Source: a virus. Taken from it: 64,000 bases of DNA. The position numbers were made by a program, and so were the translations under genes. Positions 1 through 7,598 of the stretch are shown here, piece by piece. The stretch spans positions 18,590-82,589 of the IMG/VR virus record IMGVR_UViG_3300027499_000006. One strand, written 5' to 3'. Position 1 is the first letter of the stretch. Each line of letters starts with the position of its first letter. The notes under the pieces were generated by a model, which did no database searches, was not told the DNA's origin, and saw nothing but the letters and a program-made list of their open reading frames with translations.

Positions 1-3000
1 GAGAAGAAAACTGTAGACACTTCTGGAATTCTCGGTGAAAGACGTTCCGCAGTAAAGAAGTCCAAGGCCAAACTATCTAAAGACATCCCTACAATTGAGC
101 CTAAAGAACTCAGAAACATTATCTCCAACTATCCTGCTTGGGTTAAGGAGCAGAGAGATAACAAGATTGTAGATGAAAAGAGTCCTGCTACTAGGCCTAG
201 CCCCTATGAGCACCCCCTTCTTCAGAACTGGCTAAGGAAGAGAAGTGGCTCAGATAAATATCCAATGAGCTCTTGGTCTAATCCAATTACAGCTGCTGCG
301 GACGAGAAGCTTGTTAGTCCAGACACTAGTGATGTTCAACCTGTTTATATGGCCGTTGTGGATGCAGACGACCCGAGGGCAGTGTTGGATTTGATTAGTC
401 TTGTACCAGCAAGCACCGTGTCCAATTCTCCGATGGTCTACACCCGTGAGCAGGGTAAGTGGGTTCGTGACCCTAAAACTCTTACTGACCTCAATTCTCC
501 TACTCCTCCCCCCGTTGTGCCACTTGACTCGGAGGAAACTCTTAATGATGTTCTGAAGCAGGTTGACTTTGCCCAAGGCGTGACAGCCTCTATCGCACTC
601 ACTGTTTTGTATGGAAACGAGCCGATTGTTTCTTCCATCAAGGAAAACATCTCGAAAGCTCTCCGCAAGTACTGGATTGCTGGTGCTGGGGCCAAGAAGA
701 TTCAGTGGGGTGTTGGTGGCGACTGGTACCGATGTGTCCGTCAGCTTGCCCCTTTCATGGGGGTCAGAGCAAAGAGCTATTGCCAGATGCTCCACAAGAC
801 CGCTTTGGGCTACTACACCTCGACACATGCTCGCATGGAGAGGGCCAAGCTTGGGCAATTCGAGTTGGAAGAAGAAGAGCTTGCCGTTGAATTTACCGAA
901 GTTACTCAATCCGACATGCACACCCCCCTCGAAAAGATTCTTTCTCAGAAGGGGGAGGACGAAGACTTTGACATTGATGAGGACATCAAGATTCTTCTGT
1001 CCGATGTTGAGGCTTTAGATTACGAGGATTACGCCCTAATCGCAGCTGGGGGTGCTGACCGCAACCGTGGTGGAGCTGAGAACCTTCGTCGCTACTGGAC
1101 TATCGGTAAGGGTGGTCTCAAGATTCGTTGGGGTACACCTGGTGACTGGACTCGATGCGCTCGTCAACTCCGCAAATACATGGGCGCCCGTGCACAGGGC
1201 TATTGTGCCCTCCGTCACAAAGAAATGAACGGGTTCTGGCCTGGGGATAAGAAAAACAGGCGGAAGTTTTCTTTTGATGACACTTATATTCTTAAAGATG
1301 AAGAGCAACTAATCTCAGACTCTTTCTTCTCTGCACTATCTGACATGAGTCTCGAAGAGATTATTTTGGCTTCTGTTCACCATGAGACTGGAGACTTGGG
1401 CTACTCCCCTGAGGGAGAAGAAGAAGTGTTCATTACCGAGGATGGAGAGACATGTCCTCCATCTACTCAAGATATTCAACTTAATCTCGCCAATCGACAA
1501 AATGCAATTGACAATGTTGGTTACGGCCCACTAAACCCAGCTCAAGCAAATGACGTCTTCTGGCAAGACAAAGCTGAACGGTGGAACACCACTGTTAGAG
1601 AAGCAAAATCAGCACGGTGTGGGAATTGCGTCTTCTTCATTCGTACCCCAGACATGCTCAACTGCATTGAAAAGGGAATCGGTCTTGACCAAGAGGCAGA
1701 AGGCTCCGTAGAGGCTGGGGAGCTCGGCTATTGCAACGCTCTTGACTTTAAGTGCGCCTCTGAGCGAACCTGTAACGCTTGGGCATCTGGTGGCCCAGTT
1801 ACTGCTGGTGGAGACTACAAAGTTGGAGACGACGTAAACGTTGATGTCGAAGAGTTCTTCGCAAGGCCGATGTACGAACTCCCTGAGGGACTAAAAGAGT
1901 ATGTCGAAGAGGTAGAGCAAAGTGACGAGTATGAAATTATGCTTGACGACCTTGTTCCTACTCAACGTACCGTAAACATGGCTCGCGTTAAAGACGCTAT
2001 GGACTCCGACAAGCCAATCCAAGTTTGGGTTAATGAAGACGGTGAGCCTGAAATTGTGAATGGCCACCACCGCTCTGTGGCAAAAAGAATGAGTGGCGAA
2101 GACACTATTATGGCTAAAGTTTACGACTTTAGGGGGTTTGTTGCTACTGCTGGCTCAAAGCCTGCTCCCAAGAAAGAGCGAATTAAGGGCTCAAAGCGAA
2201 ACAAGTCAGGGTCTGGAAAAACTGGTGCTGGAGTAACTTTCACTCAGAAGATTGAAGATGCTCTGGCAACCAAAGCTACCAAGCACAATGAAACTGCCAA
2301 GCAGGGTAGAAAAACCAACATCAGAACTTTGAAGGCTGTCTACCGTAGAGGGGCAGGAGCATTTTCAACTTCGCACCGCCCCGACCAGAACCGCAACAGC
2401 TGGGCCATGGCTCGAGTAAACGCATTCTTGCACCTACTTAAGACTGGTACCCCCAAGAACAGTAAGTACATTACTGACAATGACCTTCTTCCCGCTAGCC
2501 ACCCAAAATCCACAAAAAGCGCGTCAAGTGCTTTAGTTTCTGCTGGCTATAGCGGTCAGGATGGGGCATCCTTCAGTATTCCTCTTGTCATTCCTGAAGA
2601 AGTCGAGTCTGGAGATGGCAGAAAGTTTAATAAGGGTGCTATTGAAATAAGGGAGCTTCCACTTCCACTCTTGTGGCAGATTGAAACTGGCAATGGCCAC
2701 GATGGTTCTGTTGTTGTTGGTCGGATTGACCGCATGGAACAAACCGAAGAAGGTATTGGAAACGCCTACGGTGTCTTTGATTCTGGGGTGTACGGGAGTG
2801 AAGCTGAGCGTCTAGTTCGCGAGGGCTTCCTCCGTGGTGTTTCTGCTGATATGGACAAGTTTGAAGCAACAGAAGAAGTTGTCACTGAAGCAAGTGACGA
2901 CGATGATAACAAGAAAATCAAAAAAGAAAAAATTATTATTAAGTCGGCTCGTGTAATGGCCGTTACAATAGTACCTAAGCCCGCTTTTCAAGAGTGCAAA

Positions 3001-4719
3001 ATTTTCCTTGAAGAACCCAAGGACCAACCCCAGGAGGATAACATGATTCCCGACGGAATCTATATTGAAGACATTGAGCCCGCTGAGGCAGAGGCAGTTG
3101 TTGCTTCTGGCCTTATTGCTGGGTCCATCCCCGTTGCACCACCCAAGTCGTGGTTTACTAACCCACAGCTTAAGCAACCGACACCCCTTACCGTCACCGA
3201 CGAGGGCCGTGTCTATGGACACATTGCAGCGTGGGATGTTGACCACATTGGTATGGTTTCAGGCACTCGCCCCCCACGTAGCCGTAGTAACTATTCCTAC
3301 TTTCACACAGGGGTCCTCCGCACTGAAGAGGGTGTTGATGTTCCTGTTGGTCAGATTACTCTTGCTGGTGGACACGCTGACATTCGCGCAAGCGCATCCG
3401 AGGCCGTCAAGCACTACGACGACACCGCAAGCGCAGCAATTGATGTTCACGCTGGTGAGGACGCTTACGGTATTTGGGTAGCTGGTTCGCTCCGCCCAGG
3501 TGTCACCCCCGAGCAGGTTCGTGCCCTCCGCGCATCTGCTCCGTCTGGTGACTGGCGTCCAATTCGTGGCAACCTCGAGCTTGTTGCAGTGTGTCAGGTT
3601 AATGTTCCTGGGTTCCCCATTGCTCGCGCAATGGTTGCCTCTGGACAGGTTACAGCGCTGATTGCGGCTGGTGCCTCGGTTCTGGCTAAGATGCGACACA
3701 ACCCCATGCAGGAGCTCAATGAGCGTCTATCTAAGCTCGAGCAGAAGGAGAAGGCTGGCCTTATCGCAGCAGCACAGGAAGCTCGCGCTAAGTTCCAAGC
3801 TCTTCGCCCATCACAGGAAGAGCCTGTTGTTGCAGATGCCTTCTATCAGGAAGTTCAGCCAAGTCTTGTCCCGATGCTAGAGAAGACTCTGGCTGATGTC
3901 GTATCCTTTACGTTTATCGCTCAGGGGTACCACTGGAACGTCAAGGGCAAGAACTTCCCTCAGTATCACGAGTTTTTCGGAGAAATTTACGAAGAGGTTC
4001 AGGGCTCGATTGACCCCCTCGCTGAGAACATTCTTAAGCTCGGTTACGACGCTCCCATGGGCATCCTGGCTTACGCCGAGATGAGTGAGCTTTCTGCTTC
4101 TGGCACAAAGGACTCTTCCTGTGAAGCAATGGCTTATGACCTGTACTTTGCTAACAACAAAGTCTTGGACGACTATAAAGAAGCTTTCGCAACAGCAGAT
4201 TCCATGAACGAACAGGGCGTTGCTGATTTCCTTGCGGGACGCATTGACATGCACCAGAAATGGGCGTGGCAGTTGAAGGCTTCTTCAATGCCCGAGAAGA
4301 TGCGCAAAGAGAGCTACGAGGACGCTCTCGAGCCGATGGACATGATGCGTGAATACGTTGATGAGGTCCCCGAGGTTGCCATGATTTCTAGTGGAGCCGA
4401 GCACAACTTTGAAGCTTTTAGCGCCCTTACTGAACTGGCTAAGTTCACTAAGGAGGAGCGCGAAGAGCTTGCCAAAGAGGGCAAGGCTATGCCAGACGGT
4501 TCCTACCCCATCAGGAATGAAGAAGACCTGAAGAATGCAGTGTCAACTTATGGACTTGGTAAGTCTGCAAAGAAGGACATTAAAGCTCACATTATTAAGC
4601 GTGCCAAGGAGCTCAACAAAGAAGACCTCATCCCTGAGAATTGGATGGGCAAGAAGGACTTCTCCGTTGAGGACATGCGCAACCGTATTGCCGAGCTTAG
4701 TGCCAATATGGAGAAGTAG
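1..4719 (+). CDS. Mosaic capsid maturation protease (5' end outside window)
   Basis: The frame is open from base 1, so the ATG at 265 is internal and the start lies left of the window. Numbering from that Met, the order is: two copies of a Trp/Gly/Cys module (about 125-180 and 268-330, each with a GDWxRC motif); a Cys-rich segment (450-505); a ParB-like nuclease fold (560-622, NGHHRS); a DUF5824-like segment (640-748); a prohead protease domain (760-917) with likely catalytic His812 (NGHDGS) and Ser860 (RGVSAD); an actinophage-type domain (960-1145); a Dps/ferritin-like domain (1195-1345); and a C-terminal DUF6582-like domain (1408-1460). The protease should cut scaffold and capsid N-termini during head maturation. 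It precedes scaffold-like and capsid genes, as expected. The accessory domain roles are inferred from motif resemblance only; the Dps insertion is unusual. Confidence 0.8.
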   Translation, partial: EKKTVDTSGILGERRSAVKKSKAKLSKDIPTIEPKELRNIISNYPAWVKEQRDNKIVDEKSPATRPSPYEHPLLQNWLRKRSGSDKYPMSSWSNPITAAADEKLVSPDTSDVQPVYMAVVDADDPRAVLDLISLVPASTVSNSPMVYTREQGKWVRDPKTLTDLNSPTPPPVVPLDSEETLNDVLKQVDFAQGVTASIALTVLYGNEPIVSSIKENISKALRKYWIAGAGAKKIQWGVGGDWYRCVRQLAPFMGVRAKSYCQMLHKTALGYYTSTHARMERAKLGQFELEEEELAVEFTEVTQSDMHTPLEKILSQKGEDEDFDIDEDIKILLSDVEALDYEDYALIAAGGADRNRGGAENLRRYWTIGKGGLKIRWGTPGDWTRCARQLRKYMGARAQGYCALRHKEMNGFWPGDKKNRRKFSFDDTYILKDEEQLISDSFFSALSDMSLEEIILASVHHETGDLGYSPEGEEEVFITEDGETCPPSTQDIQLNLANRQNAIDNVGYGPLNPAQANDVFWQDKAERWNTTVREAKSARCGNCVFFIRTPDMLNCIEKGIGLDQEAEGSVEAGELGYCNALDFKCASERTCNAWASGGPVTAGGDYKVGDDVNVDVEEFFARPMYELPEGLKEYVEEVEQSDEYEIMLDDLVPTQRTVNMARVKDAMDSDKPIQVWVNEDGEPEIVNGHHRSVAKRMSGEDTIMAKVYDFRGFVATAGSKPAPKKERIKGSKRNKSGSGKTGAGVTFTQKIEDALATKATKHNETAKQGRKTNIRTLKAVYRRGAGAFSTSHRPDQNRNSWAMARVNAFLHLLKTGTPKNSKYITDNDLLPASHPKSTKSASSALVSAGYSGQDGASFSIPLVIPEEVESGDGRKFNKGAIEIRELPLPLLWQIETGNGHDGSVVVGRIDRMEQTEEGIGNAYGVFDSGVYGSEAERLVREGFLRGVSADMDKFEATEEVVTEASDDDDNKKIKKEKIIIKSARVMAVTIVPKPAFQECKIFLEEPKDQPQEDNMIPDGIYIEDIEPAEAEAVVASGLIAGSIPVAPPKSWFTNPQLKQPTPLTVTDEGRVYGHIAAWDVDHIGMVSGTRPPRSRSNYSYFHTGVLRTEEGVDVPVGQITLAGGHADIRASASEAVKHYDDTASAAIDVHAGEDAYGIWVAGSLRPGVTPEQVRALRASAPSGDWRPIRGNLELVAVCQVNVPGFPIARAMVASGQVTALIAAGASVLAKMRHNPMQELNERLSKLEQKEKAGLIAAAQEARAKFQALRPSQEEPVVADAFYQEVQPSLVPMLEKTLADVVSFTFIAQGYHWNVKGKNFPQYHEFFGEIYEEVQGSIDPLAENILKLGYDAPMGILAYAEMSELSASGTKDSSCEAMAYDLYFANNKVLDDYKEAFATADSMNEQGVADFLAGRIDMHQKWAWQLKASSMPEKMRKESYEDALEPMDMMREYVDEVPEVAMISSGAEHNFEAFSALTELAKFTKEEREELAKEGKAMPDGSYPIRNEEDLKNAVSTYGLGKSAKKDIKAHIIKRAKELNKEDLIPENWMGKKDFSVEDMRNRIAELSANMEK

Positions 4720-5423
4720 TGCCTGATAACCTCAAAGAGTTTATTGCTTCTGAAGACCTGCGCAAGCTGGTCGAAAAAGTCGACCCATCCATCAAAGATG
4801 AGGCTGAAAAAGAGGCAGATAAGCTTGAGAAAGAGGCAGAAGAGCTAGAGAAGATTGATGGTCAAGCTCCCTCAGTTGACACTAAAGAACAAGAATACGA
4901 CAAAGAAGGTCGTAGGCGCTACACCGCCAAAACTCAGCCACGTGACGCACAAGGCAAATTTAGATTAGTTCTTGCAAGAATTAAACAGAATCTTGGGACA
5001 TCTGGAAACCAAGGTGTTCTAGAAAAAATTGAACAGGCTGAAAATCTTGACAATGCTGGTGACTACGCTGGCGCTGTGGAGGCGTCTTCTGACCTCATTA
5101 GCACAGTGGACCGCCTCGACTCTGGGGCTCTTAATGCAAAGTCTGTGGAAAATGTTCGACTCGCCACATCAGATTTGGGCAAGGTAATTTCTAACTTACC
5201 TCTTCCTTTTGATAATCAAGCTCAAAAGGTTCGGTATAGCGATTTACCCGCTGCTCTAAAGACTCTCACCAAGAAATTAATTTCTCGTGTTGAGGAAAAA
5301 ATCGGAGCGGAAGACGCCGAGATTGCAACAAAAGAACTACGCGACTTTATGTCAGGAGCTGACTTCTATAGTCAAGCAGAGGTTTCTGCACAATTAAATA
5401 GAATGCTCAGATTACTAACTTAA
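4719..5423 (+). CDS. Scaffold-like coiled-coil protein
   Basis: A 234-residue, highly charged protein. The GTG start shares one base with the upstream TAG stop (TAGTG), which implies translational coupling to the maturation protease. Residues 20-50 are a Glu/Lys coiled coil; residues 55-80 are basic and include TAKTQPRDAQGKFR; the rest is predicted helical. No family is recognised with certainty. Its place between protease and major capsid protein, and its charged helical make-up, suggest a scaffolding or head assembly factor. The capsid gene also carries its own acidic N-terminal region, so this could be a second assembly factor or a minor head protein. Confidence 0.55.
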   Translation: MPDNLKEFIASEDLRKLVEKVDPSIKDEAEKEADKLEKEAEELEKIDGQAPSVDTKEQEYDKEGRRRYTAKTQPRDAQGKFRLVLARIKQNLGTSGNQGVLEKIEQAENLDNAGDYAGAVEASSDLISTVDRLDSGALNAKSVENVRLATSDLGKVISNLPLPFDNQAQKVRYSDLPAALKTLTKKLISRVEEKIGAEDAEIATKELRDFMSGADFYSQAEVSAQLNRMLRLLT

Positions 5424-5561: not shown

Positions 5562-7598
5562 GTGGACCAAATCAAATCGCAGCTAGACAGGCTTGCAGAC
5601 CTCGATGACGAACTAGTCACCGAGCTCGAGTCAAGTATCGTCACTGAGTTTGAATCGGTCGAAGCAGGTGAAACTACTCCCGAGTCAGTTGATGCCATGA
5701 CAGCTCTCGCTGAAATGCTCGAAACCGTTCGTGCGGAAACTCAACGCCGTGTTGCACAAGCTGAAGAGCTTACTGCCCGCGCTGCTGAGGCCGCTGCCCG
5801 AGTTAAGGGTGACGGAATCGAAGAAGCAGAAGTTGCTCCCATGGAAGAAGAGGAACCTGTCTCTACCGAAGAGGACGAGATGCCAGCTGAGGAGACTCCA
5901 GAAGAAATGATGGAAGACCCTGAGATGGAAGAGGAAACTCCTACCATGGAGGAAGAAGAGGACGAGGATAAGGATAAGACTATGTCCAAAGCATCAACAG
6001 AGTCGGGTAAAGCTGCAGAATTCACCGCAGAAGCCGATGAGAACGTTGTCGAAGAGGCTGTAGTAGAGGTCGCTGAAACAGAGTCTGAAGCAGGGGTGGC
6101 CGAAGAAGCCACTTCCGTTGAAGAGTCTGCCGAGGTCTTTGCAACAGAAGAGACAGAACCTGTTACCGAAGTAGAGGAAATCTCCGCTGAGGAAGCAGTA
6201 GAAGCACCCGAGGAAGCAACTGGTGAAGAAGTGTTCTCCACCGAAGAAGTTGTTGCTGAGGAATCCGAAACAGAAACTAGTGAGCCTGAGGCTCAGGAAG
6301 AGGCACCCGTGACCGCCGCAGTTGATGGAACTATTGATGTTCCTGCTGACCGCCGCCCAGTTGTATCCGTGGCGTCCGCTCCAGTAGCAATTACTGCTGG
6401 CGCTGACATCCCTGGACACTCGGCTGGTAGCACCCTTGCAGATATGCGCGAAGTTGCGGAGGCAATGGAGAAGCGTCTCCACAGCCTTCGTCGCGTAAAT
6501 GGTGGAGATGGAGAGCAGCACATTGTTGCATCTATCACCACTGAGTACCCCGAGGAACGTACTCTCGGTACTGACCCCGAAGAGAACCGCGCCAAGATTG
6601 AAAGATTAGTAGGAGCTGAGGCACTTGTTGCTTCGGGTGGTTTCGCCACCCCGCTTGAGGTCCGCTATGACGTTTTCGGTCTCGGTACAGCAGTCCGCCC
6701 CGTGCGTGACTCTCTTCCCCGTTTCCAGGCAGACCGTGGTGGCGTTCGCTACGTGACTCCGCCTGTATTGTCCAGCTATGCAGACGCCGTTGGTGTTTGG
6801 ACAGCTTCTAACGATGCAGCAGAGACACCCGACCCCGCAACCAAGACCAGCCTGACCGTCACAGCTGCTGCTGAGCTGACAGCCGTCACTGACGCTGTTA
6901 CTCTGCAGATGCAGTTTGGTAACCTGTTTACTCGCGCATACCCTGAACTGCTTGCTCGCCACAACGAGCTTGGTCTGATTCAGCACGCACGTGAGGCAGA
7001 GCAGAACATCCTATCTCGCATCGGAACTGGTTCAACAGCTGTCACAACCACAAGCCTCATTGGTGTCGGTCGTGACTTCTTGGTCCAGATTAAGCGTGCT
7101 GCAGCGGCCTACCGTTCGCGTCACCGCATTGACCCTAGCACCCAGCTTCGCGCCATCATCCCTTCGTGGGTGTACGACGCAATGGCTGCGGACCTCGCTC
7201 TGGCAATGCCTGGAGATGGCACCATCTCGGTGAGCAACTCCGAAATCAACGGATACCTAGCGAACTCCAACGTTGCCCTCGTGGCTTCTTTGGACGCAAA
7301 TGTGTTCGGTTCTCAGGGTACAGCTGCACTCCTTGAGTTCCCCGACTCATTCACTTGGTACCTGTTCGCTGAGGGAACATTCTTGTTCCTCGACGGTGGA
7401 ACACTCGACCTCGGAATTATCCGTGACTCGGGTCTCGTTGGAACCAACGACTACAAGATGTTCGTTGAGACCTTCGAGGGTGTTGCCAAGGTTGGCGTTG
7501 AATCGCTTGCCATCACCTCGACCATCTCGGTCAACGGTGCAGCAGCTGCCCTCCGCGACACCACTGGTGGCGCAACCGCAGCGGCTATCGAGTACTAA
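5562..7598 (+). CDS. Major capsid protein with acidic N-terminal region (HK97 fold)
   Basis: A 678-residue protein starting at GTG behind AAAGGAGAGG. Residues 1-80 are helical, 85-250 are extremely Glu/Ser/Thr-rich, and about 280-325 contains a helix followed by a short basic stretch. The capsid domain starts near 345 (ERLVGAEALVASGGFATP) and shows HK97-type features: an N-arm, a P-domain helix around HAREAEQNILSR and a late beta region. The fold should form the hexamer shell. The long acidic N-terminus resembles a fused scaffold (delta) domain and is probably removed by the upstream protease. Typical HK97-type capsid proteins are 300-400 residues, so the extra length is nearly all in this region. 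Function is assigned with confidence; the cleavage site is unknown. Confidence 0.87.
   Translation: MDQIKSQLDRLADLDDELVTELESSIVTEFESVEAGETTPESVDAMTALAEMLETVRAETQRRVAQAEELTARAAEAAARVKGDGIEEAEVAPMEEEEPVSTEEDEMPAEETPEEMMEDPEMEEETPTMEEEEDEDKDKTMSKASTESGKAAEFTAEADENVVEEAVVEVAETESEAGVAEEATSVEESAEVFATEETEPVTEVEEISAEEAVEAPEEATGEEVFSTEEVVAEESETETSEPEAQEEAPVTAAVDGTIDVPADRRPVVSVASAPVAITAGADIPGHSAGSTLADMREVAEAMEKRLHSLRRVNGGDGEQHIVASITTEYPEERTLGTDPEENRAKIERLVGAEALVASGGFATPLEVRYDVFGLGTAVRPVRDSLPRFQADRGGVRYVTPPVLSSYADAVGVWTASNDAAETPDPATKTSLTVTAAAELTAVTDAVTLQMQFGNLFTRAYPELLARHNELGLIQHAREAEQNILSRIGTGSTAVTTTSLIGVGRDFLVQIKRAAAAYRSRHRIDPSTQLRAIIPSWVYDAMAADLALAMPGDGTISVSNSEINGYLANSNVALVASLDANVFGSQGTAALLEFPDSFTWYLFAEGTFLFLDGGTLDLGIIRDSGLVGTNDYKMFVETFEGVAKVGVESLAITSTISVNGAAAALRDTTGGATAAAIEY

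Follow-up and report, generated by a model that had tools for sequence, protein, structure and literature searches.

Why should a ferritin-like domain be built into the protein that matures a phage head? The window analysed here, a 64,000-nucleotide stretch covering bases 18590-82589 of an 82,589-base IMG/VR virus record, raises this question because a Dps domain is encoded in one open frame with an S78-like head maturation protease before it and a conserved C-terminal domain after it.

Extent and parts of the head polyprotein

The first-pass annotation had numbered the protein from a methionine whose codon is at window position 265. The frame runs past the left edge of the window, upstream to a GTG codon (G000:C1:17315). 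Met265 is therefore internal, the N terminus lies upstream of the window, and the product, which ends at window position 4719, comprises 1,997 amino acids (Table 1). The Dps domain occupies residues 1718-1852 of this protein, or 1205-1339 when counted from Met265, the numbering kept below for individual residues. The polyprotein consists of several unrelated domains (DUF5824, phrog_6439 repeats, protease, and Dps) and is encoded among head genes. The linkers on either side of Dps are flexible and have low confidence in the structure model, and a model of a longer construct (715 aa) reached a pTM of 0.31, which is too poor for domain packing or assembly to be read from it. The gene boundaries of the head polyprotein move freely, as its C-terminal part was found split off here and fused in many relatives. 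The highly acidic N-terminal extension of the major head protein may be a built-in scaffold.

Table 1. Features of the head polyprotein and adjoining genes, in window coordinates.
Feature	Position	Strand	Remarks
Head polyprotein ORF	1..4719, start upstream	+	1,997 aa in total
phrog_6439 repeat	1069..1263	+	One of two stretches, no assigned function; E = 3e-42
DUF5824 domain	2188..2466	+	Also fused to Dps in L185 and L192
Head maturation protease region (phrog_859/phrog_21470)	2593..3804	+	
S78-like core within protease region	2695-3006	+	Invariant His812 and Ser860 (Met265 numbering)
Second beta-rich domain (phrog_18402)	3133..3678	+	Profile and structure model
Long linker helix at protease-Dps junction, probable coiled coil	3706..3804	+	Model residues 379-411
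Dps ferritin-like domain	3877..4281	+	Profile, PDB, and fold matches
Putative ferroxidase motif	3931..4026	+	His 3931, His 3967, Gly 3979, Asp 4012, Glu 4024
Conserved C-terminal helical domain (KAMPDGSYPIRN...LIPENW)	4441..4644, bounds approximate	+	
C-terminal part of the polyprotein (YTAKTQPRD...LLRLLT)	4719..5423	+	Separate gene here, fused in many relatives
Major head protein (phrog_777)	5562..7598	+	Long acidic N-terminal part

The embedded domain is a true Dps

The domain was matched by the Pfam ferritin profile PF00210 over residues 1205-1339 (E = 5.9e-16; 59 bits against a cut-off of 24.5), by the phrog_3636 profile (E = 5e-23), and, at the level of sequence, by the Dps structure 8ff9 in the PDB (E = 2e-16). 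AlphaFold2 was run on the monomer encoded by window positions 3832-4302 together with 51 viral relatives. The resulting model (pLDDT 92.0, pTM 0.86) contains four long helices and a short BC helix (H12-36, H42-69, H78-84, H97-124, and H128-152); a BC helix of this kind sets Dps apart among the ferritins. When this model was used for fold searches, the best 50 PDB matches were all Dps proteins (TM 0.82-0.89), and the best matches in the viral library BFVD were phage proteins named either Dps or "Prohead protease." The concordant profile, PDB, and fold matches rule out a chance resemblance, and we conclude that positions 3877-4281 encode a true Dps domain. The original proposal of a Dps four-helix domain between the protease part and the C-terminal domain, made from the letters alone, was thus borne out by the structure prediction, which returned a four-helix bundle, as well as by the profile and fold searches, which returned Dps.

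The preceding region is a head maturation protease

The region in front of Dps matched the profiles phrog_859 (3e-88) and phrog_18402 (4.5e-56). Its score with the Pfam S78 profile was 15.2 bits, below the cut-off of 21; L005 and L008 came near it, with 20.4 and 20.1, and the proteases of the type B fusions described below lie far above the cut-off. His812 and Ser860 (H43 and S91 of alignment A2) are invariant in 36 protease sequences and, given the pattern of the S78 family, are likely to be the catalytic residues. Matches to the protease region came from 835 phage records, almost all of them from phages of Actinobacteria (Mycobacterium, Gordonia, Microbacterium, and Arthrobacter), which makes an actinobacterial host likely for the window phage. 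Among isolates, Actinomycetia phage DSL-LC01, which came from Dishui Lake, is nearest by this region, at 68.9% identity. Public names for the region (2593-3804) are misleading: records of Gordonia phages call it "RNA ligase," and it appears as "portal protein" both in PHROG 859 and in several mycobacteriophages.

Dps has been joined to head proteases in several ways

Scanning viral contigs with the Dps sequence of the window returned 117 relatives, and a profile scan returned at least 587. The counts that follow refer to 120 distinct viral Dps domains from the retained loci. Of these, 80 stand alone, 29 are joined to a head maturation protease, and 11 carry other long extensions. One member of the last group (L211) also matches Peptidase_S78, and a major capsid protein gene adjoins it. 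Three kinds of protease are joined to Dps, and both domain orders occur. In type A (n = 8) the protease of the window type precedes Dps; in type B (n = 17) a canonical S78 protease follows Dps, and a polynucleotide-kinase-like or phrog_2859 part often comes first; and in type C (n = 4) a phrog_9427 protease precedes Dps. The fusion of the window recurs in related phages, a family known from environmental sequences, as type A, and types B and C join Dps to other head proteases in other arrangements. An assembly chimera or frameshift artefact is ruled out by the fusions in other contigs, which include one 78% identical to that of the window as well as more distant and differently arranged ones. 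The further partners of fused Dps domains are of the head or cargo type, such as the zeta toxin in L213. There, a gene annotated as "minor head protein" (L213:5593-8004) encodes Dps plus zeta toxin, and the next, separate gene has head maturation protease matches.

In a tree of the Dps domains, which was built from few columns and is poorly supported at its deep forks, type A was grouped (support 78), type B fell in three places, and type C in two. Several independent fusion events are therefore likely, although their number is not exactly countable. Within type A, most protease relatives lack Dps and consist of the protease and helix, a short linker, and then the C-terminal helical domain. 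A single strict gain of Dps in type A was rejected, as the six Dps-bearing rows failed to form one clade (p-AU 2e-5) and the Dps-less L086 is nested among them. The L086 protease is 83% identical to its counterpart and is followed by neither Dps nor the C-terminal domain; the simplest reading of these sequences is that Dps was lost there, and because L086 is without the domain, Dps is dispensable in some close relatives. A genome scan for a prophage or cellular source, by a method that reaches close relatives only, yielded just two MAG contigs with 31-36% identity. The GC content of the Dps segment (0.50-0.51) is intermediate between those of its flanks, and no sign of recent transfer was seen in its base composition relative to them.

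Head association of viral Dps is common but not universal

Portal and/or major-capsid genes are nearby at every fusion locus checked. In the window phage, the fusion gene is preceded by genes for terminase and portal (the latter a weak match, E = 0.0045) and followed by that for the major capsid protein (phrog_777). The capsid gene likewise follows the fusion in the type A cassette of L007; the type B cassettes of L195 and L214 run portal, fusion, major capsid protein; and the type C cassette of L204 runs portal, fusion, phrog_1623 virion protein, the same virion protein being present in L070. Stand-alone Dps genes lie directly behind a portal gene in 36 of 80 cases. In L033 the polyprotein behind such a portal-Dps pair (L033:7399-11007) matches both a head protease and an Alt-like ADP-ribosyltransferase. 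Giant polyproteins also stand behind portal-Dps pairs in L046, L009, and L075, that of L046 having ParB-like and weak Alt-like matches. A non-head setting was seen in L038, L058, L062, and similar loci, where a stand-alone Dps gene lies on the strand opposite genes for a DnaB-like helicase and other replication proteins. Because some stand-alone forms (L038) are near replication genes, head association of viral Dps is common but not universal. As the L038 type sits among replication genes and 31 of the 80 stand-alone genes have neither portal nor terminase in the available stretch, Dps can evidently be used by phages without head targeting.

The window phage encodes a further large head-region protein. 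A 2,899-aa ORF upstream of the window (L002:7440-16139, in record bases) contains a zeta-toxin kinase domain (PF06414, 1.9e-18) and is likely a second cargo polyprotein of the same phage.

Ligands, selection, and charge

The five ferroxidase ligands of Dps (H, H, D/E, D, and E), which act between subunits, are spaced 0, 12, 16, 27, and 31, and the residues first assigned to these places, His1223, His1235, Gly1239, Asp1250, and Glu1254, are correct. In the window domain, Gly replaces the usual Asp or Glu at +16, and Glu is found at +17, so the earlier statement that four of the five ligands are retained is correct for the window. It also holds across the family: the ligands H, H, D, and E are invariant in all 120 viral domains, in an alignment with a mean column identity of ∼46%, with the qualification that the scan patterns included HWNV, so that the first His is to some extent conserved by construction, and that the second scan ignored the other three ligands. 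The fifth position is variable: 30 of the 120 domains have an acid at +16, 57 resemble the window in having one at +17 but not at +16, and 33 have neither. A non-acidic residue in this place (Gly here, and no acid at +16 in 90 of 120) may weaken one iron site.

Comparison of the window with L005 gave dN/dS values of 0.085 for Dps, 0.082 for the protease, and 0.246 for the C-terminal part, all rough because dS was 1.2-1.5. The Dps domain is under purifying selection, like the protease, and the dN/dS of 0.085 together with the 120 of 120 conserved ligand sets rules out a relic or decaying domain. The median net charge of Dps is -13 to -15 in fused forms and -10 in stand-alone forms. The stand-alone forms inspected have no lysine-rich N-terminal tail, and the fused domain is acidic with no basic tail. 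A DNA-binding lysine-rich tail is a trait of only some Dps proteins and is not needed for membership in the family. Because the domain is acidic and without such a tail, direct DNA binding is less likely, and, as judged from the sequences, the ligands, dN/dS, and charge speak for iron or peroxide chemistry rather than for binding of DNA.

Discussion

Comparison with known systems. Full-text searches pairing Dps or ferritin with head proteases, in a collection without most subscription journals, turned up no description of a Dps-protease fusion. The initial statement that no such fusion had been described accordingly stands for the papers found. It does not stand for databases, since three BFVD entries named "Prohead protease [uncultured Caudovirales phage]" (A0A6J7XDU5, A0A6J7WPK9, and A0A6J7WIS1) have the Dps fold. 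These BFVD/UniProt entries represent the same kind of fusion as the window but carry automatic annotation, and no description of them was found. The papers found describe phage Dps solely as the product of separate genes (PMC6669764, PMC8008677). Such stand-alone proteins of Lactobacillus phages, the gut "Gratiaviridae" (PMC6669764, PMC8008677), and cyanophage S-SRM01 belong, like the window domain, to the Dps family of tailed phages and are likewise believed to deal with iron and oxidative stress; unlike it, they are described as acting in the host cell and have no head-protease fusion. Actinophage capsid maturation proteases (phrog_859; Mycobacterium, Gordonia, Microbacterium; DSL-LC01) share the protease region and the head cassette, but Dps was not found in the isolates with this protease. 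Bacterial Dps proteins (PA0962, V. cholerae Dps, and B. subtilis MrgA) share the fold, the BC helix, and the HW...H...D...E ligands, but are free dodecamers, usually with Asp or Glu at the fifth ligand and some with a basic tail. There is also a parallel in organization with polyvalent or head-cargo polyproteins and MuF fusions (Iyer et al. 2017, PMC5512222), which are also large, multidomain, encoded with head genes, and thought to be packaged and injected; the zeta-toxin polyprotein upstream adds to this likeness. Their cargo, unlike Dps, consists mostly of host-acting effectors, and the words "Dps," "ferritin," and "iron" are absent from that survey (PMC5512222). New relative to these systems are Dps as a putative passenger of head polyproteins and the setting in which phage Dps is found here.

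We favour, with a probability of roughly 55%, the reading that Dps is a putative ferroxidase cargo for the phage head, co-encapsidated by way of the protease; its packaging, cleavage, iron binding, and delivery are steps that we infer. In HK97-type assembly, the prohead encloses both the scaffold and the maturation protease, which acts within it. Because head proteases work inside the prohead, Dps would be expected there too: tethered to the protease by flexible linkers, it would enter alongside in many copies. The protease would then probably cut the polyprotein and free Dps within the head, where the freed domains would pair through the conserved two-fold ferroxidase centre and oxidise Fe2+ with H2O2 or O2, keeping Fenton reagents from the packaged genome. 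Dps may also leave the head with the DNA at ejection. That other phages have joined Dps and protease in different ways suggests, by the repeated and varied nature of the joining, that Dps is taken into the shell of the virus.

A role in the infected cell is the alternative that the stand-alone genes bring to mind. Dps would be made late with the head genes, be cut off or left outside the virion, and limit iron and peroxide damage to the cell late in infection. Many viral Dps proteins are free-standing, some among replication genes, and stand-alone phage Dps has been read in this way (PMC8008677, PMC6669764); a soluble enzyme, however, needs neither repeated fusion to head proteases nor a portal-adjacent position, and we consider this role unlikely for the fused domain. 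An improbable explanation is that Dps serves as an oligomerisation module whose pairing or 12-mer organises the protease or scaffold in the prohead, with iron chemistry secondary. The dodecamers established for the family fit such a module, as does the position of Dps within an assembly protein, where a long helix and a conserved C-terminal domain adjoin it, but the invariance of the four ligands exceeds structural need, and most type A relatives lack Dps altogether.

Two further readings place Dps in the virion with other functions, and both have low probability. Virion Dps cages might carry iron to the host or for entry, a "Ferrojan Horse" shifted from tail to head. The ferroxidase ligands are conserved, and a ferritin-type protein, gp217 of the Vi01-like phage Sajous1, was reported in virion mass spectrometry (PMC10892097). 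Unlike the window domain, gp217 is encoded by a separate gene in a tail-related operon and was identified by Phyre2 only; in the same study TonB/FeoB mutants and the wild type were infected equally well (PMC10892097), and the domain studied here sits in a head protein rather than a tail protein, so that we regard iron delivery as very improbable. Condensation or shielding of packaged DNA in the manner of E. coli Dps is the least probable. It would agree with family membership and with the PHROG name "DNA binding protein," but Dps proteins without DNA binding exist, and the negative charge of fused and stand-alone forms, along with the missing lysine-rich tail in the latter, speaks against it.

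Returning to the cargo reading, its broader form, in which tailed phages have repeatedly made the head protease a ferroxidase carrier and mature heads hold Dps mini-cages, possibly iron-loaded, next to the genome as an antioxidant or iron cargo, is put forward tentatively, at somewhat less than even odds. Should Dps prove to be present in the virion, the phage head would contain a working metal-handling enzyme with the potential to protect the genome against Fenton damage, and viruses would have a new route for handling iron and oxidative stress. The head maturation protease would then be an addressing device for cargo, and the question of iron in virions becomes directly testable.
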